IMG/VR virus record: IMGVR_UViG_3300036985_010036
Location: 1 to 49,594 of that record
Direction: 5' to 3' (one strand)
DNA: 49,594 nt
Source of the DNA: a virus
Below the pieces are notes generated by a model. That model searched no databases, was not told the origin of the DNA, and saw nothing but the letters and a program-made list of their open reading frames with translations. Below, piece by piece: positions 1 to 49,594 of this stretch. The position numbers and the translations under genes were made by a program. Position 1 is the first letter of the stretch. Each line of letters begins with the position of its first letter.

Positions 1-210
1 AAAGGAGATTACCTATGGATAAAAGTAAAGTTAAGCCTTTAGAGCGAGCCGAAATATACCGGCGTGTTTTAAAGAAAATCGGTATGAGCAAGGCAAAGAA
101 AAGTCCAGAATGCCAAGCATACTTTACAACAGATCACCTTCGCAAACTATATACGATGTTAGTTGAAGGAGTTAACGAATGTCAATCGGGCAAAATCCAC
201 TAACAGTTTT
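1..210. repeat. left copy of 210-bp terminal redundancy
   Basis: Bases 1-210 recur at 49385-49594 in the same orientation. The copies differ only at position 77 (a, against g at 49461) and position 83 (t, against c at 49467); both are silent third-codon positions (Lys, Gly) in the small gene they contain. The repeat lies inside coding DNA joining the polymerase gene to the primase gene, so the window is best read as a circular or circularly permuted genome of about 49,384 bp. Confidence 0.95.
15..203 (+). CDS. small basic hypothetical protein between polymerase and primase
   Basis: Encodes 62 residues, rich in Lys and Arg, with no recognised domain. AAAGGAG lies just before the ATG. Across the circle junction the gene begins inside the end of the DNA polymerase gene (stop at 49406, ATG at 49399), and its own end overlaps the primase start by 25 bases, so the three genes are translationally coupled. 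That position suggests a replication accessory role, but the sequence itself does not show one. The identical protein is encoded by the duplicated right end. Confidence 0.8.
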   Translation: MDKSKVKPLERAEIYRRVLKKIGMSKAKKSPECQAYFTTDHLRKLYTMLVEGVNECQSGKIH

Positions 211-2829: not shown

Positions 2830-3632
2830 ACCACCTAATTTCTTACGCATATTTGTCGGCGTATAAAGCACATTTTGCTGAAATAAACAAACTCAATATT
2901 CTCCTTGACTCCGGTGCCTTTACGGCATTCAAGCTTAATCGGGATATTGATTTACAGGAATATTGCGCCTTTGTAAAAAATCCTCCTTTTAAAATATGGC
3001 GCTACTTTTCTTTGGATAAAATTGGGGATCCCGAAGTAACCGATAGAAACCTACAAATTATGCTTGATAAAGGATTACATCCTATCCCTGTTTATCAAAG
3101 AGGTCAACCTATTGACAAACTTTATGAATTGATTGAAAAGTTTAATTTTGTAGGGATAGGTGGGGTTGCTGGAACGAACGATAGAAATGCTTATTTGAAA
3201 TGGATACTAGAGCGTTCCGATATTGATGCACAAAAATTACATTTGTTGGGCGTAATGAACTTAGACATCCTTCGGCAATACCGGCCTTATTCTTGTGATT
3301 CAAGTTTTATAGTAGACTCTACAAAATTTGGGCAGATAGTCTACTTTGATCCGATAAAGAATAAGATCGGAAAAATTGGCAGAGAGATTGTAAAAAATGC
3401 TTTATTAATGAAACAATTACCAGTTAAGATTCAAGAGGGATTATATACAAAAGATGGTTGGGTTCATTCTTACAAAGCAGGAGGGATGTATAATTACCAC
3501 TTGAAAGCGTCGATAATTTTTGCGGATCGGTTGAGTCAGCGTTTAAGTACCATAGGGTGTAAGTTTTTTATGATTATACCTTATCAATCTTTCCCTACAC
3601 TTATTAACTTAATGAAAGAGGGGTTAGTATGA
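2826..3632 (+). CDS. dpdA: DpdA-like DNA 7-deazaguanine transglycosylase
   Basis: A 268-residue member of the tRNA-guanine transglycosylase superfamily, of the short phage DpdA type. DpdA enzymes swap guanine in DNA for a 7-deazaguanine base such as preQ0. Visible motifs correspond to TGT: LLDSGAF at 27-32 (general acid/base Asp28), VGIGGVAG near 109-116 (the GG(L/V)A base-binding loop), HLLGV at 139-143, and SCDSS at 156-160, whose Asp158 is the expected nucleophile. The zinc site and RNA-binding parts of bacterial TGT are absent, as in phage DpdA. The preQ0 genes follow immediately, which makes the assignment strong. Confidence 0.88.
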   Translation: MNHLISYAYLSAYKAHFAEINKLNILLDSGAFTAFKLNRDIDLQEYCAFVKNPPFKIWRYFSLDKIGDPEVTDRNLQIMLDKGLHPIPVYQRGQPIDKLYELIEKFNFVGIGGVAGTNDRNAYLKWILERSDIDAQKLHLLGVMNLDILRQYRPYSCDSSFIVDSTKFGQIVYFDPIKNKIGKIGREIVKNALLMKQLPVKIQEGLYTKDGWVHSYKAGGMYNYHLKASIIFADRLSQRLSTIGCKFFMIIPYQSFPTLINLMKEGLV

Positions 3633-4312
3633 AAGACTCAGGAAAGCGGGTTGTTCTAAGTTTATCCGGGGGACTAGACAGCACCTGTTTATTATTCGAT
3701 TTATTGAAAACAGGTTATTCTGTTGAATGTATCAATTTTCAATACGGGTCGAAGCACAATCAGCGTGAAAGAGCTTTTGCCATTTCTTCCGCTTTCGCAT
3801 CACAGACCACGTTAATTTCAATTAATATGGATTTTATGGTAAAGCTGTTCAAGTCCAGTCTACTTTTAACCGGTGAGACCATACCAAAGGGGCATTACGC
3901 AGAACCTAATATGAAAAAGACCGTTGTGCCTTTTCGCAATGCTATTATGTTATCCATTGCAGGCGGATATGCCGCTTCTATCGGTGCCAACTTTGTCGCT
4001 GCTGGTACCCATCATGGAGACCATACGATTTATCCTGATTGCCGTCCCGAATTTATGGAGGCAATGCGGGATACTTTTCGCACGGGACTCTGGGAAGATA
4101 TAAGACTTTTAACCCCGTACACTTGGTTTGATAAAGGAGATATTGCTATCCGGGGTTATGAAGTCAAGGCACCTATATTCAGGACCTATTCGTGTTATAC
4201 CGGAGAAGAAATACATTGCGGAGTTTGTGGGGCGTGTACCGAAAGAAAAGAAGCATTCAAAAAACTCTATGATAAGCATGGGGTGAAGGATGAAACAGAC
4301 TACAAACAGTGA
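3629..4312 (+). CDS. queC: 7-cyano-7-deazaguanine (preQ0) synthase QueC
   Basis: A 227-residue ATP-dependent enzyme converting 7-carboxy-7-deazaguanine to preQ0 using ammonia and ATP. The PP-loop SGGLDST is at 13-19. The conserved FRNAIML segment is at 102-108 and GDHTIYPDCRPEF near 130-142. The zinc site has all four expected cysteines (189, 197, 200, 203; CGVCGAC). Length is typical of a free-standing QueC, so this is not the Gat-QueC fusion linked to archaeosine-type DNA. The start overlaps the dpdA stop as ATGA. Confidence 0.95.
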   Translation: MKDSGKRVVLSLSGGLDSTCLLFDLLKTGYSVECINFQYGSKHNQRERAFAISSAFASQTTLISINMDFMVKLFKSSLLLTGETIPKGHYAEPNMKKTVVPFRNAIMLSIAGGYAASIGANFVAAGTHHGDHTIYPDCRPEFMEAMRDTFRTGLWEDIRLLTPYTWFDKGDIAIRGYEVKAPIFRTYSCYTGEEIHCGVCGACTERKEAFKKLYDKHGVKDETDYKQ

Positions 4313-4346
4313 TAGTTGGTTCTATATTCAACGCTGGAGGAAAAAG

Positions 4347-4754
4347 ATGCGGGTAACGAAAATTATTAAAACAGAAACAGCCCATCGTCTCTTTGGGTAC
4401 AAAGGGGCATGCTCGAATATTCACGGGCATAGTTATGTATTTGAAGTAACCATGGAGAGTGAGGAATTATCTGAGGACGGTATGGTAATTGATTTTAAAA
4501 CGATCAAAGAAAAAGTGGGGGCTATTATCAATACCGCTTATGACCATGCCATTATCCTTAATGCTGAGGACCCTTTGGTCAGAGTATTAAGGAGTCATCC
4601 GTTCATGTTTAATGTATATACCATGGCAAGGAATCCTACCGTCGAAAATATGCTATTAGATGTAAACAGTCTAATATGCAAAGTATTCCCGGGAATGTTG
4701 CGTTCAATCAAAATATGGGAAACAGCTACCTCTAACGCGGAGCTTATCCTATGA
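4347..4754 (+). CDS. queD: 6-carboxytetrahydropterin synthase QueD
   Basis: A 135-residue enzyme of the PTPS fold that turns dihydroneopterin triphosphate into 6-carboxytetrahydropterin. Visible signature residues are His13 (TAHRL), Cys22, and the zinc histidines in HGH (26-28), followed by MVIDF, DHAIIL (Asp66-His67) and PTVEN. I chose the ATG at 4347 because GGAGG lies just upstream and the first residues then match the family start; the open frame extends back to 4290 but adds a non-homologous tail. It lies 34 bases after queC, and its stop overlaps queE. Confidence 0.93.
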   Translation: MRVTKIIKTETAHRLFGYKGACSNIHGHSYVFEVTMESEELSEDGMVIDFKTIKEKVGAIINTAYDHAIILNAEDPLVRVLRSHPFMFNVYTMARNPTVENMLLDVNSLICKVFPGMLRSIKIWETATSNAELIL

Positions 4755-6898: not shown

Positions 6899-7623
6899 GC
6901 ATATACCTAAAAGCAATGTTAGCAGGGGCTTGTGAAATAGCTCATGTTGAAAAGGCGAGCCCTATCGTTCTTTTAGAACCTGACGGTTCAATTGCGTCTA
7001 TCTGTTCATGGGCAATTTATGCTTCTGAACCGACGCCCCTAGGGATTATCAGGTCATTACCCTTTCACAATGATAAACCCCTGGAGAGTCCTTCTGCTGT
7101 TTCGGTCGAACAATTGACGACCTTAATTAAGGCGATCCCACCGGATAGGCAGTTTAAGGGTAAATTAGAAAATGTTTCTATCACGAATGATGGTGCTTAT
7201 TTACATTGTGAAATCAATGGCGGAAAAGGCGTTATAAGCCAGAAAATACGAGCGGTTAAAGCTTCGCCTATGCTTTTGACCTGGCGCGAGCGTTTGCGAG
7301 CTTTAATGGCAGGAAACGAAGCTTCCGAACAATCTATGACCTTGAAAAGTTTTGTTTTTAATCGAAAAAGGCTTATGGCTGCGGTTTGTGCCATTGAAGC
7401 GGCGTGTAAATACGATGGTGAATTTTCTTATGTCTCACAATCGGTCATTCCGAACGGTTATTTATGGAAATCATTAAACGAATTAAACGGCAATCAAACG
7501 GTATTATTGGCGCACATCTTACCAGCGGGAAAACCCCCGGAAAATAGTCCGTGGGAAAAAAGTATTTTTAATGTATTATTAAAGAGAAAACAACCAATAA
7601 TTTTAAAAGGAAGGAATAAGTAG
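6895..7623 (+). CDS. hypothetical protein, possible sliding-clamp-like fold
   Basis: A 242-residue protein. I see no firm family motif, but the alternation of strands (GKLENVSITNDGAYLHCEI), the SVEQLTTLIKAIP segment, and a C-terminal NGYLWKSLNELNGNQTVLLA pattern ending in a hydrophobic strand recall divergent DnaN-type clamps carried by phages. No other candidate clamp was seen in this genome, which has its own family A polymerase. The idea is weak and rests on strand pattern only. It is coupled to the preceding gene by ATGA. Confidence 0.7.
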   Translation: MSIYLKAMLAGACEIAHVEKASPIVLLEPDGSIASICSWAIYASEPTPLGIIRSLPFHNDKPLESPSAVSVEQLTTLIKAIPPDRQFKGKLENVSITNDGAYLHCEINGGKGVISQKIRAVKASPMLLTWRERLRALMAGNEASEQSMTLKSFVFNRKRLMAAVCAIEAACKYDGEFSYVSQSVIPNGYLWKSLNELNGNQTVLLAHILPAGKPPENSPWEKSIFNVLLKRKQPIILKGRNK

Positions 7624-10133: not shown

Positions 10134-10464
10134 AGGAACTGTTGGAAAAGTTCTTCATTGGCATTCTTATAAGGGCGATATTATTGCTTTAGTAGACCCA
10201 GGAAATGGCGCTTTAGTTAATTGGAAAGCTACGGATTGTCGAGTCTTTAAGGTAGAATTATTCCCGGAAAATAATCAGGCTTTAAAAGACTTAATTAAAT
10301 GCTTAGACGGTTTGGCAGAAGGGCAAGACGCTTTTGTGTTGTCAAAGCAATCCTATAGTATTATAAGGGACGCACTAGTTAGGAGAAGTACCGAAGATCA
10401 CCGAGACTTGAGTGAAAGAACTCGATGGACTGATAGAAACAGAAACCTTAGCAAAATGGGTTAG
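10111..10464 (+). CDS. hypothetical protein
   Basis: A 117-residue protein. I start it at ATG 10111 because AAGGAGATAT sits directly upstream; a TTG 18 bases earlier lacks a site. The N-terminal half is predicted beta-stranded (GTVGKVLHWHSYKGDIIALV), resembling small barrel proteins; the C-terminal ~40 residues are charged. No family is recognised. Confidence 0.6.
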   Translation: MELQLKIKGTVGKVLHWHSYKGDIIALVDPGNGALVNWKATDCRVFKVELFPENNQALKDLIKCLDGLAEGQDAFVLSKQSYSIIRDALVRRSTEDHRDLSERTRWTDRNRNLSKMG

Positions 10465-10467
10465 ATT

Positions 10468-10743
10468 ATGGCAATATTTTGTGGGGATTGTGATTTTGTT
10501 CATCCTAAAGAAAGTCATCCTGAAGCACATTACCATGAGTGTACAAAGTATAAGGTCCGCTTGTACCATTATAGAAGCCACCCCAATTTATATCGTGCTC
10601 CAGAATGTTGTTTAATGAAAATACCTACACCACCATTGAAAGGAATTAAATTATGGCAATGGAATGTACCGACAAGTCATGTACCTTTCACGACAAAGAC
10701 GAACCTTTCTGTCACGAAAAGGAATGCTGGAAAAAGACCTTAA
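10468..10743 (+). CDS. possible zinc-binding small protein (uncertain gene)
   Basis: An open frame of 91 residues in the same frame as the preceding gene, four bases after its stop. CGDC (5-8) followed by His and Cys (HPEAHYHEC) and a later CC pair suggests zinc binding in the first ~50 residues. The ribosome site is weak and the last ~30 residues overlap the next gene, so the true product might be shorter. A different frame (10412-10615) encodes a hydrophobic segment and cannot be fully excluded. Confidence 0.4.
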   Translation: MAIFCGDCDFVHPKESHPEAHYHECTKYKVRLYHYRSHPNLYRAPECCLMKIPTPPLKGIKLWQWNVPTSHVPFTTKTNLSVTKRNAGKRP

Positions 10744-11207
10744 ATCTATGTGATACTTGCAAAAAGAATATAGCAAGTTGTGATGGCGTTCCTGAATTCG
10801 GCACTGGAAAAGAGAATGATAATGTCTATGCTTGTTGTGAACATGTCTATGTGATGGAAGATATGGTAGCTTTTAAGCCGAAAAATAATGGCAGAAAACC
10901 GGCTGTACTTAATGAAAATTATGACTGGGACTATGATATTGAAGACCCGAATAGCTGGCTTGAAACCGGGGAGCCGAGTACGTACACCTTCCTAAGTGAA
11001 GAAAATAAGCATGAACATAGGAGAAAAGTTTTGTTTGAAAAAGCACGTGCTGTTAAAGAATTTACGTTATTTGTTATTGCCGTACCGGTGATTACCATAT
11101 TTGCTGTGGTGATATGTGTAGTTCCATGGCTGCTGCTTGAGCTACTTGATTTTATGGAACGTATGAGGTGGAGGATATGTTCATTATTTTGTGGTACCAA
11201 GCGATAA
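10653..11207 (+). CDS. cysteine-rich protein with C-terminal membrane segment
   Basis: A 184-residue protein. The first ~65 residues contain nine cysteines (5, 10, 20, 25, 33, 36, 43, 61, 62), including CDTC, which probably bind zinc. An acidic middle follows (NYDWDYDIEDPNSW). Residues ~136-166 form a long hydrophobic segment (VIAVPVITIFAVVICVV), then an amphipathic, basic end. The layout suggests a membrane-anchored cytoplasmic zinc domain. AAAGGAAT precedes the ATG. No known family. Confidence 0.7.
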   Translation: MAMECTDKSCTFHDKDEPFCHEKECWKKTLNLCDTCKKNIASCDGVPEFGTGKENDNVYACCEHVYVMEDMVAFKPKNNGRKPAVLNENYDWDYDIEDPNSWLETGEPSTYTFLSEENKHEHRRKVLFEKARAVKEFTLFVIAVPVITIFAVVICVVPWLLLELLDFMERMRWRICSLFCGTKR

Positions 11208-11222
11208 GAGGTTGATTTTATT

Positions 11223-11393
11223 ATGAAAACAAAGATTGTAATTAAGAAAAAGACTCCGATAAAAGTGGAAGGGGATCCCCATATTTCTGTCTGGATGAGT
11301 GCGCATTGTAGCTGTGGTTGTAGATTAAGAACGGATAAAATTTTGATTTGGTGCTCTCGCCCTTCATGTAATTATTATAGCAGGGTCAAATAA
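11223..11393 (+). CDS. 56-residue zinc-ribbon microprotein
   Basis: A short gene not overlapping its neighbours, with AGAGGTTG upstream. Its product has a basic N-terminus (KIVIKKKTPIK), then CSCGC and, after 14 residues, CSRPSC: a compact four- or five-cysteine zinc-ribbon. It is the last of the run of small cysteine-rich genes before the non-coding control region. Confidence 0.65.
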   Translation: MKTKIVIKKKTPIKVEGDPHISVWMSAHCSCGCRLRTDKILIWCSRPSCNYYSRVK

Positions 11394-11412
11394 TTCACTA
11401 TTTTATGTATTA

Positions 11413-11486
11413 TTGTTGATTTTAAATAAGTTATGACTGGTACTTTTCAGAAAAAAAAGTACAGGTTGTTGATTCTAAAGAAGTTA
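11413..11486 (+). repeat. 21-base direct repeat pair
   Basis: TTGTTGATTTTAAATAAGTT begins at 11413 and TTGTTGATTCTAAAGAAGTT at 11466, each followed by A. The repeat unit is 21 bases with two mismatches, starts 53 bases apart, and flanks the GTACTTTT/AAAAGTAC inverted repeat. This looks like a pair of protein-binding sites. Confidence 0.7.
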
Positions 11487-11504
11487 GCTCTAAAACCTAG
11501 TCTC

Positions 11505-11574
11505 TATATATAGGGAGATATAAAATATTATAATAATCTAAATATTATAATATGATTCATATCTTAAGGTATAT
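11505..11574 (+). repeat. AT-rich element, inverted relative to copy at 39759-39828
   Basis: Read on the + strand, this 70-base element matches the reverse complement of 39759-39828 with roughly 8-10 mismatches and one short gap. The least AT-biased shared parts are TATAGGGA at one end and ATTCATATCTTAAG at the other, so the match is not only low complexity. See the findings. Confidence 0.7.
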
Positions 11575-11780
11575 AGACGACCATATATATATAATAGGTG
11601 AAAGGATGTGCTGAAAAGGTACGTATTAAATGGTACGTATAGAAAAGTACGTTAGGATGGGTACATATACATATAGGGAATAGGTACAATTATTTATTAT
11701 AGAAATGGCAGCTCTCTTTGAAGTATATTTAAAGTATACATGATAATAACAAAATTACAATCTTAATACCAAGGTGGACC

Positions 11781-12311
11781 ATGAAAGTACAAACAGGTAA
11801 GAGTAAAATACAAATACGTAAGTCTACACCAAAAAAGAAAGTGCCAGAAGAGATAGTACCGGAGGAGATAGTACCAAAGAAGAGAGTATACTTCGGAGGC
11901 AAGCAAGGTATTAATGGGGCGAAACCGGGAGAAGTCAGAAATCCTTATGGTAGACCTCCAACCGCAAAATGTATCCCCGACATACTTCGTCGAATAGGTG
12001 ACGACCCCATACCAGAAGTATTCCTAGACCAATTAAAATTTATCAATCCAAAGATTAGAATAGAACCCAAGAATAATAATATGCGCTTCGGTATGCTTCT
12101 CAGGACTTATTATGATGCAATAAGAGGAGATAAAGACGCACGTCATTTTATTGCAGAACGTACCGAAGGAAAAGTAACCGAAAAAGGATTAGGTGAAGGT
12201 AAGGGAGAAATATTGGAGGCCATTGATAGAATACTCGATACTCCTCTAATTGAGGCCAAAGAAGAAATGGCACCCCTTGACTCCTCTTCTCCCAGCGACA
12301 AGGAAAAATAA
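11781..12311 (+). CDS. putative terminase small subunit
   Basis: A 176-residue basic protein directly before the large terminase. After a Lys/Pro/Glu-rich N-terminus with a short repeat (PEEIVPEEIVP), residues ~36-55 contain the GKPGEVRNPYGRPP-type segment typical of DUF5681-like phage proteins encoded beside terminases. The middle is helical, and the C-terminus acidic. It should recognise packaging DNA and recruit the motor. AAGGTGG is upstream. The family match is by motif and position. Confidence 0.7.
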   Translation: MKVQTGKSKIQIRKSTPKKKVPEEIVPEEIVPKKRVYFGGKQGINGAKPGEVRNPYGRPPTAKCIPDILRRIGDDPIPEVFLDQLKFINPKIRIEPKNNNMRFGMLLRTYYDAIRGDKDARHFIAERTEGKVTEKGLGEGKGEILEAIDRILDTPLIEAKEEMAPLDSSSPSDKEK

Positions 12312-18057: not shown

Positions 18058-18828
18058 ATGTCACAAACAGCTTACGCCCAAACGTTCGTTAAAGGTTTTG
18101 CGGGAATGCTCGCAGACTCACGAAAAAGTCTTTGCTCCAGCTTACAGGCTGCTGTAGCAATTCCTCCCGGTCGCGGGGTTGTAAAAATGTACGGATATGC
18201 AAACCAGTGTCGTTTGCCTGTGGAGAATCAATCGGTGCTTACCGATGACGCTGGAACCTTTACCGCGGGCACTATTTCCGTAACGGTAAATGGTACCGTA
18301 ATTACGCAAGCATGGGGTACCGATAAAAATACGACCTTGACCGCTCTTGCGGCAGCAATTCAAGCCGGAGTTACCGGGATCTACAGTGCCGTTTACAATA
18401 GCGGTGCACATACCATTACTCTTAAATCAAGGAACATTGATGTCGTTGCCGTGGCAGACCTTTCAGGAGTTACCGGTACGATGGCACTTATGCCGGCTGT
18501 TGCCACTTCTCTTGATGTTGCAGCAAACCTTATTGGTGTAGCGGTCAATCCCGGGGCAACCGAACAGGTATCTGATGTTGTCACCATTAAAGCAACTGAA
18601 GCGGTCTCAGTGCTTGAGGAAGGTACTATTTATGTAATACCAGAAGAGACCGTTACCGCAGACGATGATGTGTACTATCGTATTCAGGATAATGGAACCA
18701 AATTGCGGGGAATGTTCGGCACATCTTCCGACAGTAGCAAATGTATTTTGCTTGCCGGTGCCCGATGGGTTGAAGGTGGTACAGGTTTGACGACTGTCGC
18801 CAAGCTACAACTTAATCTGCCACAGTAA
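18058..18828 (+). CDS. capsid decoration/cement protein with inserted shared domain
   Basis: A 256-residue virion protein directly before the major capsid. The N-terminal ~60 and C-terminal ~100 residues resemble small cement proteins (AVNPGATEQVSD ... IPEETVTADDDVYYRI). Residues ~60-150 form an extra Thr/Val-rich beta domain starting LTDDAGTFTAGTISVTVNG. The same domain occurs in the tail sheath (23878-24153) and in the tail terminator (21605-21862). It probably covers the capsid surface. AGAGGG precedes the ATG. Confidence 0.72.
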   Translation: MSQTAYAQTFVKGFAGMLADSRKSLCSSLQAAVAIPPGRGVVKMYGYANQCRLPVENQSVLTDDAGTFTAGTISVTVNGTVITQAWGTDKNTTLTALAAAIQAGVTGIYSAVYNSGAHTITLKSRNIDVVAVADLSGVTGTMALMPAVATSLDVAANLIGVAVNPGATEQVSDVVTIKATEAVSVLEEGTIYVIPEETVTADDDVYYRIQDNGTKLRGMFGTSSDSSKCILLAGARWVEGGTGLTTVAKLQLNLPQ

Positions 18829-18895
18829 TGAATGGTAAGTAATAGAAACATTAACCTAAACTAACAATAATACAACTTTTTAAAGGACGGTTAAC

Positions 18896-19843
18896 ATGAA
18901 ATTTGTAAATCTCGACGCAAACGAATCAGTATTTTTTGCGCGTGAATTGGAGCACATTAAGGCACGGACGTACGACATCGTCTATCCGGAGCTTAAGGCA
19001 ACCATGCTTATCCCTGTTGCCACAGATGCAGGTCCCGGGGCAGAAACGATCACTTATACACAATTCGACGAAGTTGGTATGGCAAAAGTTATTGCCAATT
19101 ATGCCGACGACCTTCCGAGGGCAGATGTAAAAGGTAAGCAATTCTCCAGCCCTGTTCGATCAATCGGTGACTCCTTCGGATACAATCTCCAGGAAATCAG
19201 AGCGAGTGCCATGGCGAACAAGAACCTTCCGACACGTAAAGCCAATGCGGCTCGCCGGGCAATGGAACAAAAAGTCAATACTCTTGCATGGTCAGCACGG
19301 GCTGCTGATGGAGAAAATGGCGGACTTGTCGGTCTCATTTATCAGGCCAATATTACCAAAGGAACAGTTACCACTCGCGGTGGACATATTACCTTTGCCT
19401 CAAAAACCGCGGACGAAATCCTCCTTGACCTCAATAAAGGCGTTGATGACATTCTCACCTTGACCAAAGGTACTGAAATCCCGGACACACTCATTCTGCC
19501 AATTGCGCAGCATGGTATTATCACCAGCACCTATCGTTCAACAGGAAGTGATTTGACCATTCTGGAAGCATTCCTCAAGCAACGTCCGTACATTACCAAG
19601 GTGGAATGGGTTGCGGAACTCAAGGATGTAAACCCTGTACCATCTACAGGTGTCGCGGCAAATACAGACATAATGATTTTTTACAAACGTTCCTCTGACA
19701 AGCTTACGCTTGAAATACCGCAGCCTTTTGAGCAGCTTGAAGTTGAGAGACGCGGACTCGAGTACATAACTCCTTGCCATGAACGTTGTGGTGGTGTTAT
19801 CGTCTACTATCCCCTTTCAATCAACCTTGTAGAAGGTATCTAA
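18896..19843 (+). CDS. major capsid protein (DUF2184-like, HK97 fold)
   Basis: A 315-residue protein of the expected size and position, with a strong ribosome site (AAAGGACGG) and GC-richer codon choice than neighbours, as expected for the most abundant product. Segments characteristic of the DUF2184 capsid family are visible: TITYTQFDEVGMAKVI, NKNLPTRKANAARRAMEQK and a C-terminal PFEQLEVERRGLEY beta strand. It forms the icosahedral shell. Confidence 0.88.
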   Translation: MKFVNLDANESVFFARELEHIKARTYDIVYPELKATMLIPVATDAGPGAETITYTQFDEVGMAKVIANYADDLPRADVKGKQFSSPVRSIGDSFGYNLQEIRASAMANKNLPTRKANAARRAMEQKVNTLAWSARAADGENGGLVGLIYQANITKGTVTTRGGHITFASKTADEILLDLNKGVDDILTLTKGTEIPDTLILPIAQHGIITSTYRSTGSDLTILEAFLKQRPYITKVEWVAELKDVNPVPSTGVAANTDIMIFYKRSSDKLTLEIPQPFEQLEVERRGLEYITPCHERCGGVIVYYPLSINLVEGI

Positions 19844-19926
19844 GGGCTAGTGGCAGTCATCGGTTAGAGGGGGAGAAATTTTCCCTCTCTAACTCCTACA
19901 TCAAAAAATTATCTGGAGGATAAAAA

Positions 19927-20325
19927 ATGATAGTAAGGCAAACAAAACCGTTTATCACCTACGTAGGTTCAAAGTTCTTCTACCCCGGGATGAATACTTT
20001 TACTGAGCAAGAAGCGGCGGAACTCCTCGCCGATCCCTCTTTTACATCCAAGGTCAAGGATAAGCTTCTTGAAATCATCGGCAAGAATTCCGCGCCGGTA
20101 ATCAATATTTCCCCTTCCTCAGTGAAAGCGGCTGTGACTAAGATCAGCGTTGTTGGCTTGGCAAGTTCTGCTGCTATAAAGATTATAGAGAGTACCTTTA
20201 ATGTGGCAGCATTGAAAGACCTTGCCCTGACCGATCAAAGAAAAGGTATTCAAGATGCAATCGCTAAACAGCTGAAAAGAATTGATGACCAAAAGGTCGT
20301 TGTCGAAAAGAAAGAAGAGGAATAA
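19927..20325 (+). CDS. head-tail region hypothetical protein
   Basis: A 132-residue protein between the major capsid and connector genes, with CTGGAGG upstream. The N-terminus (MIVRQTKPFITYVGSKFFYPG) looks like a small beta unit; the C-terminal half is helical and ends in a charged tail (VVEKKEEE). By position it may belong to the head-tail interface. No family is recognised. Confidence 0.7.
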   Translation: MIVRQTKPFITYVGSKFFYPGMNTFTEQEAAELLADPSFTSKVKDKLLEIIGKNSAPVINISPSSVKAAVTKISVVGLASSAAIKIIESTFNVAALKDLALTDQRKGIQDAIAKQLKRIDDQKVVVEKKEEE

Positions 20326-20326
20326 T

Positions 20327-20725
20327 ATGTCTTTCACGGCACTGCAGACAATCCAATTGCGCGCTCCTCAGTGGGCTTTAGATCCAAGGCTTAGCGATCT
20401 TATCTCTTATGCACGAATAGGGTTGTCTGCAAGTGTCTTAGGGGAGCGTTATGAGATTGCCGTTGGATTAAAGGTTTGTCATATCTTAGCTGTAGAGCAG
20501 GCTAACGGTGGTAATCCTGGGACCGGGACATCAAGTGGCAGTGGAACTTCGGGTGCCATAACGTCAGAATCCGAGGGGGGATTATCACGTTCGTATGGTG
20601 CCGCCGGTTCCGGGATAAGTGGTAAAATGCTTTCGGTTACTGATCTGGATTCAACTGCTTTTGGTACCGAACTTTTAACGATATTACAAACATCTACATT
20701 GTTCCCCAGAACGAGGAGAATGTAA
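20327..20725 (+). CDS. head-tail adaptor (DUF4054-like)
   Basis: A 132-residue protein resembling DUF4054 adaptors: N-terminal helices with RLSDLISYARIGLS and YEIAVGLKVCHILAVEQ, a Gly/Ser-rich loop (GTGTSSGSGTSG), then SEGGLSRSYG and a final LL-rich helix before PRTRRM. Adaptors of this kind bind below the portal. I start at ATG 20327, two bases after the preceding stop, with GAGGAATA upstream. The stop overlaps the next ATG. Confidence 0.82.
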   Translation: MSFTALQTIQLRAPQWALDPRLSDLISYARIGLSASVLGERYEIAVGLKVCHILAVEQANGGNPGTGTSSGSGTSGAITSESEGGLSRSYGAAGSGISGKMLSVTDLDSTAFGTELLTILQTSTLFPRTRRM

Positions 20726-21213
20726 TGTCTCATGTTTCCGTATCTGATACCGATAAAGGTATGGCCTCTTTTTTGAAGACGATAAGAGGCGTAAGCGGAA
20801 ATAGTTATACTAAGGTCGGATTACCAGAAGAGAGTGAACCGGCAGTGGTTAGTGAAGGGCACAGCTCAACCCAAATAGATCTTATTCGTATTGGTGCTAT
20901 TCACGAATTTGGAGCACCAAATGCAAACATACCCGAGCGATCTTTTATTCGTTCTACCTTTGATGCGAATTCGGAGAAATTGAAAAAGATAAAAGAAGAG
21001 GAAGCTATTCGCATTATCGCTGGGCAAAGCACTCCTCAAAAATCATTGGCACGTATAGGGGAATGGATGGCAACAAAAATAAAGCTTAGGATAAAGGATA
21101 ATATTCCACCTAAGCTTTCACCTTATACGATCGCAAAAAAAGGCAGTGATGTCGCTTTGATTGATTCTGGACAATTGATACAATCCATTACCCATGTAGA
21201 GGTGATGGCATGA
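20725..21213 (+). CDS. neck / head-tail joining protein (gp10-like)
   Basis: A 162-residue protein carrying the signature of phage virion-morphogenesis/HK97 gp10-type proteins: IGAIHEFGAPNANIPERSFI (about 57-76), then long helices and the C-terminal LIDSGQLIQSITHVEV. These proteins link connector and tail. ATG overlaps the previous stop. Confidence 0.82.
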   Translation: MSHVSVSDTDKGMASFLKTIRGVSGNSYTKVGLPEESEPAVVSEGHSSTQIDLIRIGAIHEFGAPNANIPERSFIRSTFDANSEKLKKIKEEEAIRIIAGQSTPQKSLARIGEWMATKIKLRIKDNIPPKLSPYTIAKKGSDVALIDSGQLIQSITHVEVMA

Positions 21214-21536
21214 GCTCCTTTCGTAAACCGACTACGGTTATCTCCCGGGGAACGGGAGCTTATACCAATGGAACTTATAGCGAATCGGTAGGAGCTACGA
21301 GCACCATTCAAGCTTCGGTACAACCAACGAGTGCCGCCGAAGTCTTGACTTTACCAGAAGGTAGAAGAGAAAAGAAGTCCTTTAAATTATTTACAGACTC
21401 TTCTCTTTTATCACTAGATCAAACACAGAACCCGGATAGGGTGGTTATCTTTGGGGAAGAGTACGAAGTCATCAAAAAAGATCCCTGGCAAAATAACGTG
21501 ATTAATCATTACGAGTACATAGTGGTAAAAGTATGA
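21210..21536 (+). CDS. head closure-like protein
   Basis: A 108-residue, mostly beta protein between the gp10-like neck protein and the tail terminator. The pattern (IQASVQPTSAAEVLTLPEGR, then DRVVIFGEEYEVIKKDPW and a final YEYIVVKV strand) matches small beta-barrel head-closure/stopper proteins of contractile phages. ATGA overlaps at both ends. Family not named with certainty. Confidence 0.68.
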   Translation: MSSFRKPTTVISRGTGAYTNGTYSESVGATSTIQASVQPTSAAEVLTLPEGRREKKSFKLFTDSSLLSLDQTQNPDRVVIFGEEYEVIKKDPWQNNVINHYEYIVVKV

Positions 21537-23584
21537 ACTACGAAACAATGAAAACCGATCTTGCCAAGTGGATAATGGGGACTCAACCTATTGTCATATC
21601 TTGGAATGAAGGTGACTTCACGGATGGAATAATCTCTATTACTGTTAATACCACAACGGTAACAGAGACCTTCGGTGACGATCGTGATTACCTTACGGCA
21701 TTGGCAGATAAAATCAAGGCTATTCCCGAAGTAATGTTTTTTGAGTATGACGTAGAAAAAAGGACTTATACTTTTTTATGTCGATTCGTTAGTTCTTTGC
21801 CAATGGTAGTCTTGACAGACAATACTCAAATTATAGGGACACTTATTTTTACGGTAACACCTTCTATCCCGTTTATCTGGATGAACCCGAATGCGCCAAG
21901 ACCTTTACTGCCATATATCGCTGGAAAAATATCTCCTTTCGTACCTATTGGTGAAGACTATGTTAGTCGTTCCGATTCAAATGGAATAATCACCATCACT
22001 GGGAATAGAGAGTTTACCTTATCATTGCAGGCTTATGGTCCTGGAGCGTTCGAGTTATTACAAAATATTCAAAAAGCATTGCGCAGAAAAACTTCCCGGG
22101 ATCCCTTATATAGCATAGCTCTTGTTTTTGTAGATGATGTGGGTGGTATTATTGACATTACGCAACTATTAGAATCGCGTTTGGAAAATCGTTTTGCAAT
22201 TGACTTGCGTTTTAGGACAACTGATATAATAACAGATGTCCCGGAATTCATTGAACATGTAGAAATAGCGGGACAATTTATGGAAGAGGAAATACTCATT
22301 ACCTTAGATACCATAACAGTTCCGATAATTGTAGTGCCTCCAGTACCACCTGATATTATAGCAGCACCGGTATTATTGAGTGCCGTACCGCAAGATGCAG
22401 CCGTCCTCGTTTCTTGGGATAGTGTAGACGATGCCGATTATTACACTGTTTATTTCAATCAAGGCAGCACGGTAGATAAACTTGGAGCGAATTGGACTTA
22501 TGTAGATTCTCCTACATTGGTTGACTGGCTGACCAACGGGGAAGAGTATACTTTTGCGGTGACTGCTACGGACGTTTTAGGTGTTGAGTCCGAGCTATCA
22601 AATATCCTTTCAGCGACCCCGGTAGAACCTCCTCCGCCACCTTTACCAGACGCTCCTGTTTTAGGTAGTATTACCGTAGGAGATAATAGGGTAACGATTG
22701 CTTGGTCTCCTGTTACCGGTGCGGCCAGCTATAATATATACTGGAAACAAGGGGCGACGGTTACAAAACTAGACGGTACAAAAATTACTTCTGCCACTTC
22801 TCCCTATTTAAAGAAAGGTTTAGTTGATGGTACAGAATATGCTTTTGGGGTAACTTCTGTAAACATTGATGGTGAGTCTCTATTATCAAACGTCTTGACC
22901 GGTACTCCAGTAGACGCTACTTATTTAGTTCAAGGATGGTGGAAGGGTGAAGATGATACGGTTGACTCTGTTAATGGGAATAATGGGGTTTGGGTTTCTA
23001 ATGAAGCATACGATGTAGGTGCCGTGGGAGATTGTTTTAAATTCGGGTCAGCTACTGGACTTTTAAAATTACCAAATAGTGTGAATATAAATTTCTGTGA
23101 AACAGACCGATTTACCATATTAGAAAAACTTAGATTTACAACTGGAGAGTGGGGCTGGACAAGTAACTTTCAACTTCTACAAAAAAATTCGGTTCTTAAT
23201 GCATATCCGAATACAGGCTTTGTGATTGCTATTTATGAATGGTATGCTTGGGTACGTATTTCACTTCAAACGAATGCACCAGGTCTCCCGGGACAATGGT
23301 GGGAATTTACTAAGGTGGTTGAAGGAGAACCGGCTTGTGTAAATCCTTTCAATGAAGATGAAACGGTTTATGATTTTACGACCTGGCAAGATATTAAAAT
23401 TACTTATGATGACGGTCGCTGGGAAATTTATATCAATAATATAAAACAAAATCCAAATGCAGATGGGTACTTCAATTGTCAAATAGTTGAAAATAATTCC
23501 GATTACTTTTTATCAACATATAATGTTGGTGGTGCCGAAGCAATTTTTGTAGATGAATTCAAGATTGCAAGAGGAATAGAATAA
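21533..23584 (+). CDS. tail terminator with shared insert, two FN3 domains and a lectin-like C-terminus
   Basis: An unusually long 683-residue terminator. Residues ~25-110 are the beta domain shared with the decoration and sheath proteins. Residues ~120-250 match the LIC_12616-like terminator core (ITGNREFTLSLQAYGPGAFE ... FAIDLRFRTTD). Two FN3 domains follow near 280-370 (APVLLSAVPQDAAVLVSWDS) and 375-460 (APVLGSITVGDNRVTIAW), joined by a proline linker. Residues ~465-683 form a LamG/concanavalin-like sandwich ending IFVDEFKIARG. Normal terminators are 120-160 residues, so most of this protein should project from the neck and may bind sugars. Confidence 0.8.
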   Translation: MNYETMKTDLAKWIMGTQPIVISWNEGDFTDGIISITVNTTTVTETFGDDRDYLTALADKIKAIPEVMFFEYDVEKRTYTFLCRFVSSLPMVVLTDNTQIIGTLIFTVTPSIPFIWMNPNAPRPLLPYIAGKISPFVPIGEDYVSRSDSNGIITITGNREFTLSLQAYGPGAFELLQNIQKALRRKTSRDPLYSIALVFVDDVGGIIDITQLLESRLENRFAIDLRFRTTDIITDVPEFIEHVEIAGQFMEEEILITLDTITVPIIVVPPVPPDIIAAPVLLSAVPQDAAVLVSWDSVDDADYYTVYFNQGSTVDKLGANWTYVDSPTLVDWLTNGEEYTFAVTATDVLGVESELSNILSATPVEPPPPPLPDAPVLGSITVGDNRVTIAWSPVTGAASYNIYWKQGATVTKLDGTKITSATSPYLKKGLVDGTEYAFGVTSVNIDGESLLSNVLTGTPVDATYLVQGWWKGEDDTVDSVNGNNGVWVSNEAYDVGAVGDCFKFGSATGLLKLPNSVNINFCETDRFTILEKLRFTTGEWGWTSNFQLLQKNSVLNAYPNTGFVIAIYEWYAWVRISLQTNAPGLPGQWWEFTKVVEGEPACVNPFNEDETVYDFTTWQDIKITYDDGRWEIYINNIKQNPNADGYFNCQIVENNSDYFLSTYNVGGAEAIFVDEFKIARGIE

Positions 23585-23613
23585 TATAAATCACTTTTTA
23601 CAGGAGGGTTTTC

Positions 23614-24972
23614 ATGTCTCTAAAAGAAATCGTAAATGTTTCAATTTCTCGGGAAACTAAATCAGTGAGCCGAGCAGGGTTTGGTACTATTCTCATTCTG
23701 GGTCCGAATGGAAATTTCACCGGACAGACTCAGGAATTTACCGCCGTAGACTCTTCTATGGCAGCAATGCTTGTTGGAGGAAGCGGTGCTCCAGAGTACA
23801 AAGCGGCACAAGCAATTTTTTCACAGAATCCCAGTGTAGTAAAAATCAAGATAGGGCAGATATTGGGTACAAGGTCTCTAACCGATAATGCCGGAACTTG
23901 GTCTGCTGGCGGTTCAATATCCTGTAAAGTTAATGGCGTGCTTGTTACCCAGAACTTCTCCACTGACAAAGCTACGACTCTTACGGCTTTTGCAGTCAAG
24001 CTCGCCGCCGCTGATGGTGTGGCAACTGCCACCTATACTGATGGTACCCATATCATTCTAATAACCCCGGATGCAGGCGTTCCTCTGGCAATCACTGAAA
24101 TAACCTTGGCAGGTACGACCGGGACTTTAGTAGCGCCGATTCTCTCAGCGACCGCGACCGCGAGCTTTACCGATTCATTGGACGCTATCGTAGAAAGTGA
24201 CGATGACTGGTACGGTCTCTGTATCGTTTCACGGACTATTGCTAATCAGGAAGATGTTGCAGAATGGACCGAGACGAAGCGTAAAATATTTGCCATTGCG
24301 TCTGCGGATGCGGATATTGTTGATACTACAGACTCGGGAGACACGACAACTATTGCCGCAATAATTAAAGCTAATGCTTATACTCGTTCTTTCGTAGTGG
24401 CACTCTCCAGTGCAGGTACAGAGTACCCGGATGCAGCGACCTTAGGTAAATTATTACCTTACGATCCCGGAACATATACGATGAAGTTCAAGACCTTAGC
24501 CGGTATCACTGTTGATTATCTCACGGCAACACAGTCAACCAATGCCAGAGATAAACATGCCAATACTTATGAAGAGGTAGGAGCAGTTAATATATTACAA
24601 GAAGGTACTGTAGGTGAAGGAGAATACCTTGATGTAATTATTTTCATTGACTGGTTGCAGGCAAGGATTACCGAAGGAGTATATCAGCCTTTGGTCAATA
24701 ACCTTAAAATCCCATATACAGAAATCGGTATGGCAGCTATTAAAGGCGAGATAGAAAAAGTTCTTAAGATCGGTGTTGCTCGGGGTGGCATATCGGATTA
24801 TGCTCAGGATTCTGACAAGAACCAAATTGGTGGTTACACCGTTACTCTTCCTGCTTTTGAGGATATTACCACAGCAGACAAAGCGGCACGCCTCCTTACC
24901 GGCGTAAAATTTACCGCTTGGTTGGCCGGAGCAATTCACGCTGTAGAGATAGCAGGCGTAGTTACCCTTTAA
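23614..24972 (+). CDS. contractile tail sheath protein (DUF3383-like)
   Basis: A 452-residue sheath subunit, which defines the phage as a myovirus type. The N-terminal VNVSISRETKSVSRAGFGTI and C-terminal KFTAWLAGAIHAVEIAGVV segments are typical of DUF3383 sheaths. Residues ~89-180 are an inserted domain (LTDNAGTWSAGG...) homologous to ones in the decoration protein and the terminator. AGGAGGG precedes the ATG. The sheath contracts around the tube to drive injection. Confidence 0.88.
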   Translation: MSLKEIVNVSISRETKSVSRAGFGTILILGPNGNFTGQTQEFTAVDSSMAAMLVGGSGAPEYKAAQAIFSQNPSVVKIKIGQILGTRSLTDNAGTWSAGGSISCKVNGVLVTQNFSTDKATTLTAFAVKLAAADGVATATYTDGTHIILITPDAGVPLAITEITLAGTTGTLVAPILSATATASFTDSLDAIVESDDDWYGLCIVSRTIANQEDVAEWTETKRKIFAIASADADIVDTTDSGDTTTIAAIIKANAYTRSFVVALSSAGTEYPDAATLGKLLPYDPGTYTMKFKTLAGITVDYLTATQSTNARDKHANTYEEVGAVNILQEGTVGEGEYLDVIIFIDWLQARITEGVYQPLVNNLKIPYTEIGMAAIKGEIEKVLKIGVARGGISDYAQDSDKNQIGGYTVTLPAFEDITTADKAARLLTGVKFTAWLAGAIHAVEIAGVVTL

Positions 24973-47642: not shown

Positions 47643-49406
47643 ATGAAAACCCGTGCAATCAAAACTTCTGATAAGATCGTAGTCGACTATGAGACTACCG
47701 GTCTAACCGATGACCCGAATGCACGGGTTTTTTCATATTCATTAACTTGGTGTGATGATGGATACACCGAAGTTTATCGTAATGATACCCCTGATAAAAT
47801 ACCACTTTCTTTGTACGAAGATAAAATACAGGATTTTTGGCAATCATCTTGTGAAGGTGTTGCGCATAATTTTTCCTTTGAAAATCACATGTCTCTGCGT
47901 GAAGGTTGGGTTCGTAACCCAAATAAACAAATGCATGATACAATGATAATGCATCAATACATAAACAATTTATCAAGCTCAAACCAGTTAAAATATTTAG
48001 CTCCTTTATATGCGGGAATCACCCCGGAGTGGGAAAAGCCATGGAAAGCAGTTAAAGAAGCATTCAAGATATATGGTAGATATGATTTAATTCCCGAGTA
48101 CTTAATGCACCCTTACCAAATAGCTGATGGTGAAGCTACGGCAAGTTTATTCAACTTATTCTTACCATTGGTTAAACCATGGGAAGAGTACCTTAATGAA
48201 ATAAATCTAATCTATACGACAGTCCGAATGGAGCGTATAGGTTTTATGGTTGATAGAAAAAATGCTCAGGATTTGATTGATGTTATGGAAGGTGACCTTA
48301 CGAGTAATGAAATAGAAATGGAGGCAATAGTAGGCAGGAAATTAAACATGAATTCTCCGGCACAATTATCTCATTACCTTTATAAAGAGTTAGGTTTACC
48401 GGATCAGGGCTCGGTTGATATTGAGGCAATAGAATCTTTAAGAAAGATAAATGACCTTCCGGTACTCGACTGTATTTTAAAAAAGAGAGCGTACACCCGA
48501 GGAGTATCAACTATACAAAGTTATTTAACCTCTTCAATATTTGACGGAGCAATCCATCCGACCATCAATACCAATAAAGCACGTACCGGTAGAGAAACAT
48601 CTGAAAATCCGAATATGCAAAATGTATCGAAAGAATTTAAGGTCGATTCAAAATATACTGTAGCAGCGCGTAAATGCTTTAGGGCACGTCCAGGATACTT
48701 TTTATTACTGGCTGATTATGCCGGAATAGAAATGCGTCTTGGGGTTCAAGGAACCAAGAGTGAACGTCTGATAAAATTATGTCGTGAAAATTTTGACTTT
48801 CATGCTGCTATGGCAACTTCTTTTTATGGTAAGCGTTATACTGAGGAGCAAAATATAAAGATAAAAAAAGCACTGAGGAGTAAAGCTAAAAATGCCCGGT
48901 TTGCAATGTTCTACGGGGCAGGAATAAAACAAACAGCCGATACTCTTGGGTTATCTATAGAAGAAGTTACCGTAGGATATGAGCGTGATAAAAAGGATTT
49001 TCCTGAAATATATGCATTTATGGATGAATGTACCTTATTTGCAAAAAAGAATGGTTACATCGAAACATACTTCGGGAGGAAATTAAGGACAGAATCCGAT
49101 AGAGCTTATGTCGCCACAGACTATAAAATCCAAGGTAGTGCGGCGGCATTATTTAAGCATGCCCAGGTCGATGTAGATAATTACTTTATAAATGAGATTG
49201 GATACCCCTTAGCACGTTGTATATTACCGGTGCATGACGAATTAGTTATGGAACTACATCGTTCTCTTTTACCAGATTTGGACTCTATAATGGTAAACAC
49301 TAATAGAATAATGACCGATTATCCACAAATAACGGTACCAATAAAGGTGGAATTTAATAGGTCTATGTTGACTTGGGATGCAAAAAAGGAGATTACCTAT
49401 GGATAA
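47643..49406 (+). CDS. DNA polymerase, family A, with 3'-5' exonuclease
   Basis: A 587-residue replicative polymerase. Exonuclease motifs: VVDYETTG (Asp15, Glu17), AHNFSFENH and YQIADGEAT. Polymerase motif A LLADYAGIEMRLG (~356-368), motif B KNARFAMFYG (~416-425; Phe, not Tyr, at the ribose-discrimination position), motif C HDELV (531-535). No 5'-3' exonuclease domain. The stop overlaps the small gene that recurs at the start of the window, so polymerase and primase genes are adjacent on the circle. Confidence 0.95.
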   Translation: MKTRAIKTSDKIVVDYETTGLTDDPNARVFSYSLTWCDDGYTEVYRNDTPDKIPLSLYEDKIQDFWQSSCEGVAHNFSFENHMSLREGWVRNPNKQMHDTMIMHQYINNLSSSNQLKYLAPLYAGITPEWEKPWKAVKEAFKIYGRYDLIPEYLMHPYQIADGEATASLFNLFLPLVKPWEEYLNEINLIYTTVRMERIGFMVDRKNAQDLIDVMEGDLTSNEIEMEAIVGRKLNMNSPAQLSHYLYKELGLPDQGSVDIEAIESLRKINDLPVLDCILKKRAYTRGVSTIQSYLTSSIFDGAIHPTINTNKARTGRETSENPNMQNVSKEFKVDSKYTVAARKCFRARPGYFLLLADYAGIEMRLGVQGTKSERLIKLCRENFDFHAAMATSFYGKRYTEEQNIKIKKALRSKAKNARFAMFYGAGIKQTADTLGLSIEEVTVGYERDKKDFPEIYAFMDECTLFAKKNGYIETYFGRKLRTESDRAYVATDYKIQGSAAALFKHAQVDVDNYFINEIGYPLARCILPVHDELVMELHRSLLPDLDSIMVNTNRIMTDYPQITVPIKVEFNRSMLTWDAKKEITYG

Positions 49407-49594
49407 AAGTAAAGTTAAGCCTTTAGAGCGAGCCGAAATATACCGGCGTGTTTTAAAGAAGATCGGCATGAGCAAGGCAAAGAAAAGTCCAGAATGCCAA
49501 GCATACTTTACAACAGATCACCTTCGCAAACTATATACGATGTTAGTTGAAGGAGTTAACGAATGTCAATCGGGCAAAATCCACTAACAGTTTT
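49385..49594. repeat. right copy of 210-bp terminal redundancy
   Basis: Same sequence as 1-210 except g at 49461 and c at 49467. It includes the whole small gene and the first bases of the primase gene, showing how the ends join. Confidence 0.95.
49399..49587 (+). CDS. duplicate of the small gene at 15-203 (end redundancy)
   Basis: Encodes the same 62 residues as 15-203; the two base differences are silent. Its ATG lies within the last codons of the polymerase gene. This is one gene seen twice because the sequence wraps round, not a paralogue. Confidence 0.8.
   Translation: MDKSKVKPLERAEIYRRVLKKIGMSKAKKSPECQAYFTTDHLRKLYTMLVEGVNECQSGKIH

Follow-up and report, generated by a model that had tools for sequence, protein, structure and literature searches.

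The window analysed here is the whole of a virus record of 49,594 bases (IMG/VR record IMGVR_UViG_3300036985_010036). It holds a contractile-tail structural cluster of the standard type, comprising portal, head protease, cement (PF22758), major capsid, DUF4054, neck, head completion, terminator (PF23961), DUF3383 sheath and tube genes. A first-pass annotation had claimed that a beta domain of 85–90 residues, which we call the module, was inserted in three unrelated proteins of this cluster: the decoration (cement) protein, the tail terminator and the tail sheath. Judging from their sequences, the segments represent a single self-contained domain in three copies; all of them were located where proposed and in frame, with a module core of 80–85 residues (Table 1). 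By alignment, the copies are set into cores that are unrelated to one another, and empty sites are seen in relatives.

One module in decoration protein, terminator and sheath

The strictest profile was built from relatives only, leaving out the window sequences and all terminator copies. When scanned against the 238 open reading frames (ORFs) of the window it selected three, those of the decoration protein, sheath and terminator, and the next best E-value was 1.3, while a reversed-sequence control gave nothing below E 0.15. In a tblastn search of the window, the sole other matches of the decoration copy were the sheath (E 4e-13) and the terminator (E 5e-8). Each pair of modules outscored all 5000 shuffles in Smith-Waterman alignments (z of 16.6 for decoration/sheath, 15.3 for decoration/terminator and 5.6 for terminator/sheath). 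The terminator copy is the most diverged of the three yet clearly related: it is recovered at E 3.1e-7, and a two-sequence profile of terminator copies matched the remaining modules with a P-value of 1.1e-12 (hhalign). The claim of a common domain is thus borne out by shuffles, tblastn and the relatives-only profile, including for the terminator, whose lack of a significant relation to the others had been named as a ground for refutation. The consensus pattern first drawn up proved slightly too strict, as the sheath reads SCKVNG...LTAFA.

Chance similarity was ruled out by the shuffles, the independent profiles and the reversed control. Convergence, or compositional likeness of unrelated Thr/Ala-rich beta domains, could appeal to profiles rich in Thr, Ala, Val and Gly and to the moderate significance of the terminator/sheath comparison taken alone, but it is hard to square with profile E-values reaching 5.6e-27 against a reversed control above 0.15, with a decoration/sheath profile match of 6.8e-33 and with the identical DNA common to copies in relatives. 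We regard it as very improbable overall, and for the decoration/sheath pair it is already refuted.

Table 1 Positions of the module copies and their host genes in the window
Feature	Position	Strand	Evidence
Module copy 1 (type A), decoration protein, at about residue 61	18238..18486	+	HMM (hidden Markov model) without window sequences, 5.6e-27
Module copy 2 (type A), terminator, junction of N-terminal helix and first strand	21605..21847	+	HMM, 3.1e-7
Module copy 3 (type A), sheath, extra-domain position of other DUF3383 sheaths	23878..24132	+	HMM, 4.7e-23
Decoration (cement) protein gene, 256 residues	18058..18828	+	Pfam PF22758 Phage_cement, 1.6e-13; PHROG 563
Tail terminator (neck/gateway) gene, 683 residues	21533..23584	+	PF23961, 1.4e-20, at residues 114–248; fn3, 1.6e-10
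Terminator core	21872..22276	+	PF23961, residues 114–248
Fibronectin type III repeat, terminator extension	22673..22897	+	Pfam fn3, two stretches, 1e-11
Tail sheath gene (DUF3383), 452 residues	23614..24972	+	PF11863, 1.2e-33; PHROG 205, 3.2e-97; solved sheath 9zdk_S, 1.1e-45

The cores of the three host proteins passed their Pfam cut-offs: 51.5 bits for the cement protein (PF22758, cut-off 27), 74 bits for the terminator (PF23961, cut-off 27) and 117 bits for the sheath (DUF3383, cut-off 34.9). These cores appear unrelated, since the best local alignments of the full-length proteins are centred on the module. Orthologs with empty sites were found for each. Cement proteins without the module have 167 residues at locus L019 and 166 in Pam3, compared with 256 in the window. 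In module-free terminators (ORFs of 178 and 187 residues at L019 and L009) the N-terminal helix runs straight into the strand that comes after the module. Likewise, a 379-residue sheath (L080) matches window residues 3–81 and 179–452 with almost nothing between, residues 82–178 of the window sheath being missing from it. The sheath copy aligns with residues 90–162 of the solved sheath 9zdk_S. These empty sites and core alignments support the earlier notion of insertion into unrelated head, neck and tail proteins. In the E217 cement protein gp24, an omega loop at residues 58–75 packs on the neighbouring subunit (PMC10329688); the window cement insertion site would map close to this loop in residue number.

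The window terminator consists of an N-terminal helix, the module, the terminator core, fn3 repeats and a long C-terminal extension. A second, weaker fn3 repeat lies upstream of the one in Table 1. Terminators usually have about 180 residues, and so long an extension on a neck ring is unusual. Its last 227 residues gave no match in PDB, Pfam or PHROG, and look LamG/ConA-like by eye. A 210-bp direct repeat with 2 mismatches stands at the two ends of the window (1–210 and 49385–49594), which suggests that the genome is complete and either terminally redundant or circularly assembled.

Predicted fold of the module

Using 44 aligned modules as input, AlphaFold gave a confident model of the decoration copy (predicted local distance difference test (pLDDT) 91.8, predicted template modelling score (pTM) 0.84) with the strand order b-b-b-alpha-b-b-b-b, that is, seven strands of at least 3 residues each and one 15-residue helix. 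The terminator copy showed the same order after its N-terminal helix, with low confidence (pLDDT 57). In a Foldseek comparison with solved structures, the top match of the decoration model was the sheath of A-1(L) (8kee, E 6e-4), followed by Bxb1 capsid, Milano, Mu, 7-7-1 and PhiTE entries and domains D2/D3 of P. aeruginosa FliC; 9khy, 8foy, 9cba and FliC D2/D3 (8erm) had probabilities of 0.98–0.99 and E-values of 0.016–0.05. A viral structure library added baseplate J, major tail and minor capsid proteins. For the terminator model, the ten best PDB matches were all contractile-tail structures with sheath-length chains, at weak E-values of 0.2–0.7. As to the structure prediction suggested in the first-pass annotation, the decoration copy has a confident model with a sheath protein as its best solved match, and the terminator copy an agreeing strand order in a low-confidence model.

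A seven-stranded beta-sandwich flanked by one helix characterises the published "lateral" or FliD-like fold. The decoration model is predicted to have this architecture and matched both sheath extra domains and FliC/FliD, with a weaker match for the terminator model. By this prediction the module belongs to the lateral or FliD-like fold and not to the classical immunoglobulin (Ig) domains, and homology suggests the same fold for the terminator copy. A 2025 paper on the lateral sheath domain places the fold also in nozzle, auxiliary capsid, FliD and flagellin proteins (PMC12846349), and it had been noticed earlier in the XM1 sheath as InD (PMC10457771). In solved sheaths the additional domain is positioned away from the tube (PMC9230969), as in Mu, whose sheath domain III extends outward (PMC11915804); by analogy the module would lie off the tail tube and outside the assembly core.

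Spread among relatives and exchange between copies

Scans of viral contigs, together with iterated profiles, yielded 79 loci (redundant contigs included) with 74 matches to type A, to which all three window copies belong, and 81 to a second type, B. The two types are remotely related (hhalign P 1.4e-4, reversed control 0.1) and sit at the same position in the sheath. Type A gave no convincing named domain in Pfam, PHROG or NCBIfam, and no Ig family of Pfam matched any of 15 type A members. Among 25 type B members, 7 had Big_2 scores (best E 1.1e-4); the one bit score given, 16.6, lies below the cut-off of 22.8. Flagellin_IN (PF07196) stayed below its cut-off with best E-values of 0.033 for type B and 0.98 for type A. 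Membership in the classical Ig, Big_2 and Flagellin_IN families was rejected at the Pfam cut-offs.

Among loci with the respective gene in view, the module was carried by 37 of 44 cement, 44 of 51 sheath, 8 of 48 terminator, 5 of 48 head-completion and 7 of 17 baseplate-J genes; since loci were retrieved via the module and a few near-duplicates remain, these counts are not prevalences. Further carriers were a PHROG 5335-like ORF (L017) and a 641-residue ORF without family match (L023). The three proteins first named are all carriers, but that scope was an underestimate, as relatives add head-completion, baseplate-J and two further proteins. Insertion sites vary: in cement proteins the module sits in the vicinity of residue 43 or of residue 60, or else C-terminally, and in terminators it comes after the first hairpin in L047, L051 and L052 and before it in the others. 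Tandem copies were found in cement and sheath proteins. A separate phage (L027) likewise has the module in cement, terminator and sheath, and in L031 the terminator and sheath copies are of type B and the cement copy of type A. The carriers are cement, ring, sheath and wedge proteins, and among the ORFs for capsid, portal, tube or tape measure in these loci none showed a copy, a distribution that fits outward-facing positions.

Exact direct repeats of at least 22 bp were listed in 70 loci, where modules make up 4.2% of bases. Cross-gene repeats within modules comprised a 114-bp cement/sheath tract in L033, a 103-bp tract between cement and the extra ORF in L017 and a 31-bp cement/sheath tract in L027. 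The others were a tandem array (L020), the terminal repeat of the window, a contig-end repeat (L076), a close low-complexity pair (L052) and a 29-bp pair (L034). Apart from these five exceptions, every listed repeat links module copies in different genes. Beyond the exact tracts identity drops to about 50–60%, and toward its C-terminal end the cement copy of L033 again resembles the cement protein of L025. This is the pattern that partial conversion between copies would leave, and it indicates recent intragenomic exchange of module copies in these three relatives. The longest exact DNA shared by the window copies is only 9 bp, so the duplications in the window are old. The intragenomic duplication suggested earlier therefore finds its evidence in the exact tracts of three relatives and not in the window itself, whose copies are too old. 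On the best module trees, gene labels changed 12 times for type A (24 at random) and 7 times for type B (20 at random); both vertical descent and transfer appear to have contributed to the history of the module.

The exact 29-bp repeat of L034 lies at 7320 and 14736, outside any module. Isolated phage genomes gave no tblastn match to the decoration protein or its module, and the module query found no relatives in GTDB genomes, where a sheath query returned three contigs of metagenome-assembled genomes (MAGs). The contig L079 is filed under a Nanoarchaeota MAG and is probably a phage contig; its 909-residue ORF (1–2727) has the terminator domain solely at the C-terminal end (residues 760–901). 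L081, a contig of a Bacteroidota MAG, holds three tandem tube-like genes (10257–11864). In L005 the head-completion and sheath ORFs (2992–4737) are 4 bp apart with no terminator gene between them.

A proposed promiscuous insert and its known counterparts

Based on these results, we propose that the module is one fold-defined domain acting as a promiscuous insert in virion proteins, copied between genes and gained and lost across phages, a reading to which we give a probability of about 0.8. In this group of contractile-tailed phages with E217/Pam3-like structural genes, the module would insert into loops of those virion proteins that present an outer face, leaving the assembly core intact, and recombination, at times converting only part of a copy, would carry it from gene to gene within a genome. 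Each copy would most likely project from the particle, in the window phage by analogy with solved sheaths, so that head, neck and tail would each bear an accessory outer surface, and this surface may benefit the phage through weak binding, docking or shielding. Several points weigh against this proposal. Between the window copies DNA identity has vanished, the exact tracts are seen at the level of metagenome contigs rather than of reads, and the module trees carry no support testing; moreover, label changes fewer than random imply that much of the history was vertical. The terminator copy is diverged, and its fold rests mainly on homology.

For what such a surface might do, we rank three readings in the order in which they follow here. 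Tentatively preferred is an adhesive coat, a plausible role that the first-pass annotation had put forward with host or mucus as the target, in which one weak binding surface on head, neck and tail would engage host glycans or environmental polymers and raise encounter rates. Exposed domains of flagella and virions are known to have this class of fold, a contribution to adhesion has been suggested for Ig-like sheath domains (PMC9230969), the window terminator has, besides the module, fn3 repeats and a long additional stretch at its C-terminus, and the capsid, portal, tube and tape-measure ORFs lack a visible copy. No binding motif was found, however, and the near-invariant columns (Gly, Asn, Thr and hydrophobic residues) look structural. 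Median identity was 0.53 in the module against 0.33 in the core for decoration proteins and 0.45 against 0.42 for sheaths. As the module is no more variable than its host protein and its near-invariant positions look structural, nothing points to the fast-evolving receptor site of a receptor-driven surface, and the idea of a hypervariable surface was not supported. Somewhat more doubtful is a structural role, the module stabilising the particle by lateral subunit contacts or offering pockets for fibre docking. An insertion domain of the A-1(L) wedge, perhaps of another fold, holds the long tail fibre (PMC10966104), and the E217 omega loop near the cement insertion site touches neighbours (PMC10329688); patchy occurrence in orthologs, varying copy number and several insertion sites speak against an essential specific contact. 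Those same empty sites, together with tandem expansions in sheath and decoration proteins and DNA exchange in partial tracts, would suit a selfish or neutral domain, an autonomously folding insert tolerated in exposed loops and a good recombination substrate of no benefit. This we find rather unlikely, as copies stay well conserved, decoration modules more so than their cores, and recur in the same outward protein classes. Also unlikely, by our estimate, is a virion-wide coat under concerted evolution, in which conversion of copies against each other would keep the binding surface of head and neck the same as that of tail and baseplate; if it were true, one change could spread over the whole particle.

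The finding matters in that phage mosaicism is usually framed by whole genes, whereas here a domain-sized unit is common to unrelated structural genes of one genome. It offers a direct, testable case for the origin of extra domains in proteins of sheath, cement, neck and baseplate, and lets their role be studied on a single target.

Accessory beta domains of the Ig-like kind (I-set, Fn3, Big_2) occur across many virion proteins and are exchanged between phages (cited in PMC9230969), and the module resembles them in both respects. It differs in that type A has no Ig match in Pfam and a helix lies between strands 3 and 4, while type B reaches only sub-threshold Big_2 scores. Viewed by eye, the strand-helix-strand pattern of the module is similar to that of Flagellin_IN, and flagellin is among the matches of the fold search, but the sequence score is not significant. 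The FD domain of the crassvirus auxiliary capsid protein is a FliD/FliC-like domain inserted in a capsid auxiliary protein and probably related in fold; it is larger (~160 residues) and is described for one carrier, an unrelated protein of a podovirus (PMC10172136). The closest counterpart is the lateral extra domain of sheaths (PMC12846349, PMC9230969, PMC10457771), with which the module shares the predicted seven strands and helix, Foldseek matches to sheath chains and an identical position within the sheath. Both the fold and its presence in more than one virion protein have already been published, as a comparison of folds across unrelated phages. A literature search, with subscription papers outside it, returned no earlier report of one phage whose cement, terminator and sheath share a domain at the sequence level. 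What appears to be new is sharing at the sequence level, with homologous copies in several proteins of one virion, extending to terminator, head-completion and baseplate J proteins besides cement and sheath, and with recent DNA exchange between the copies.
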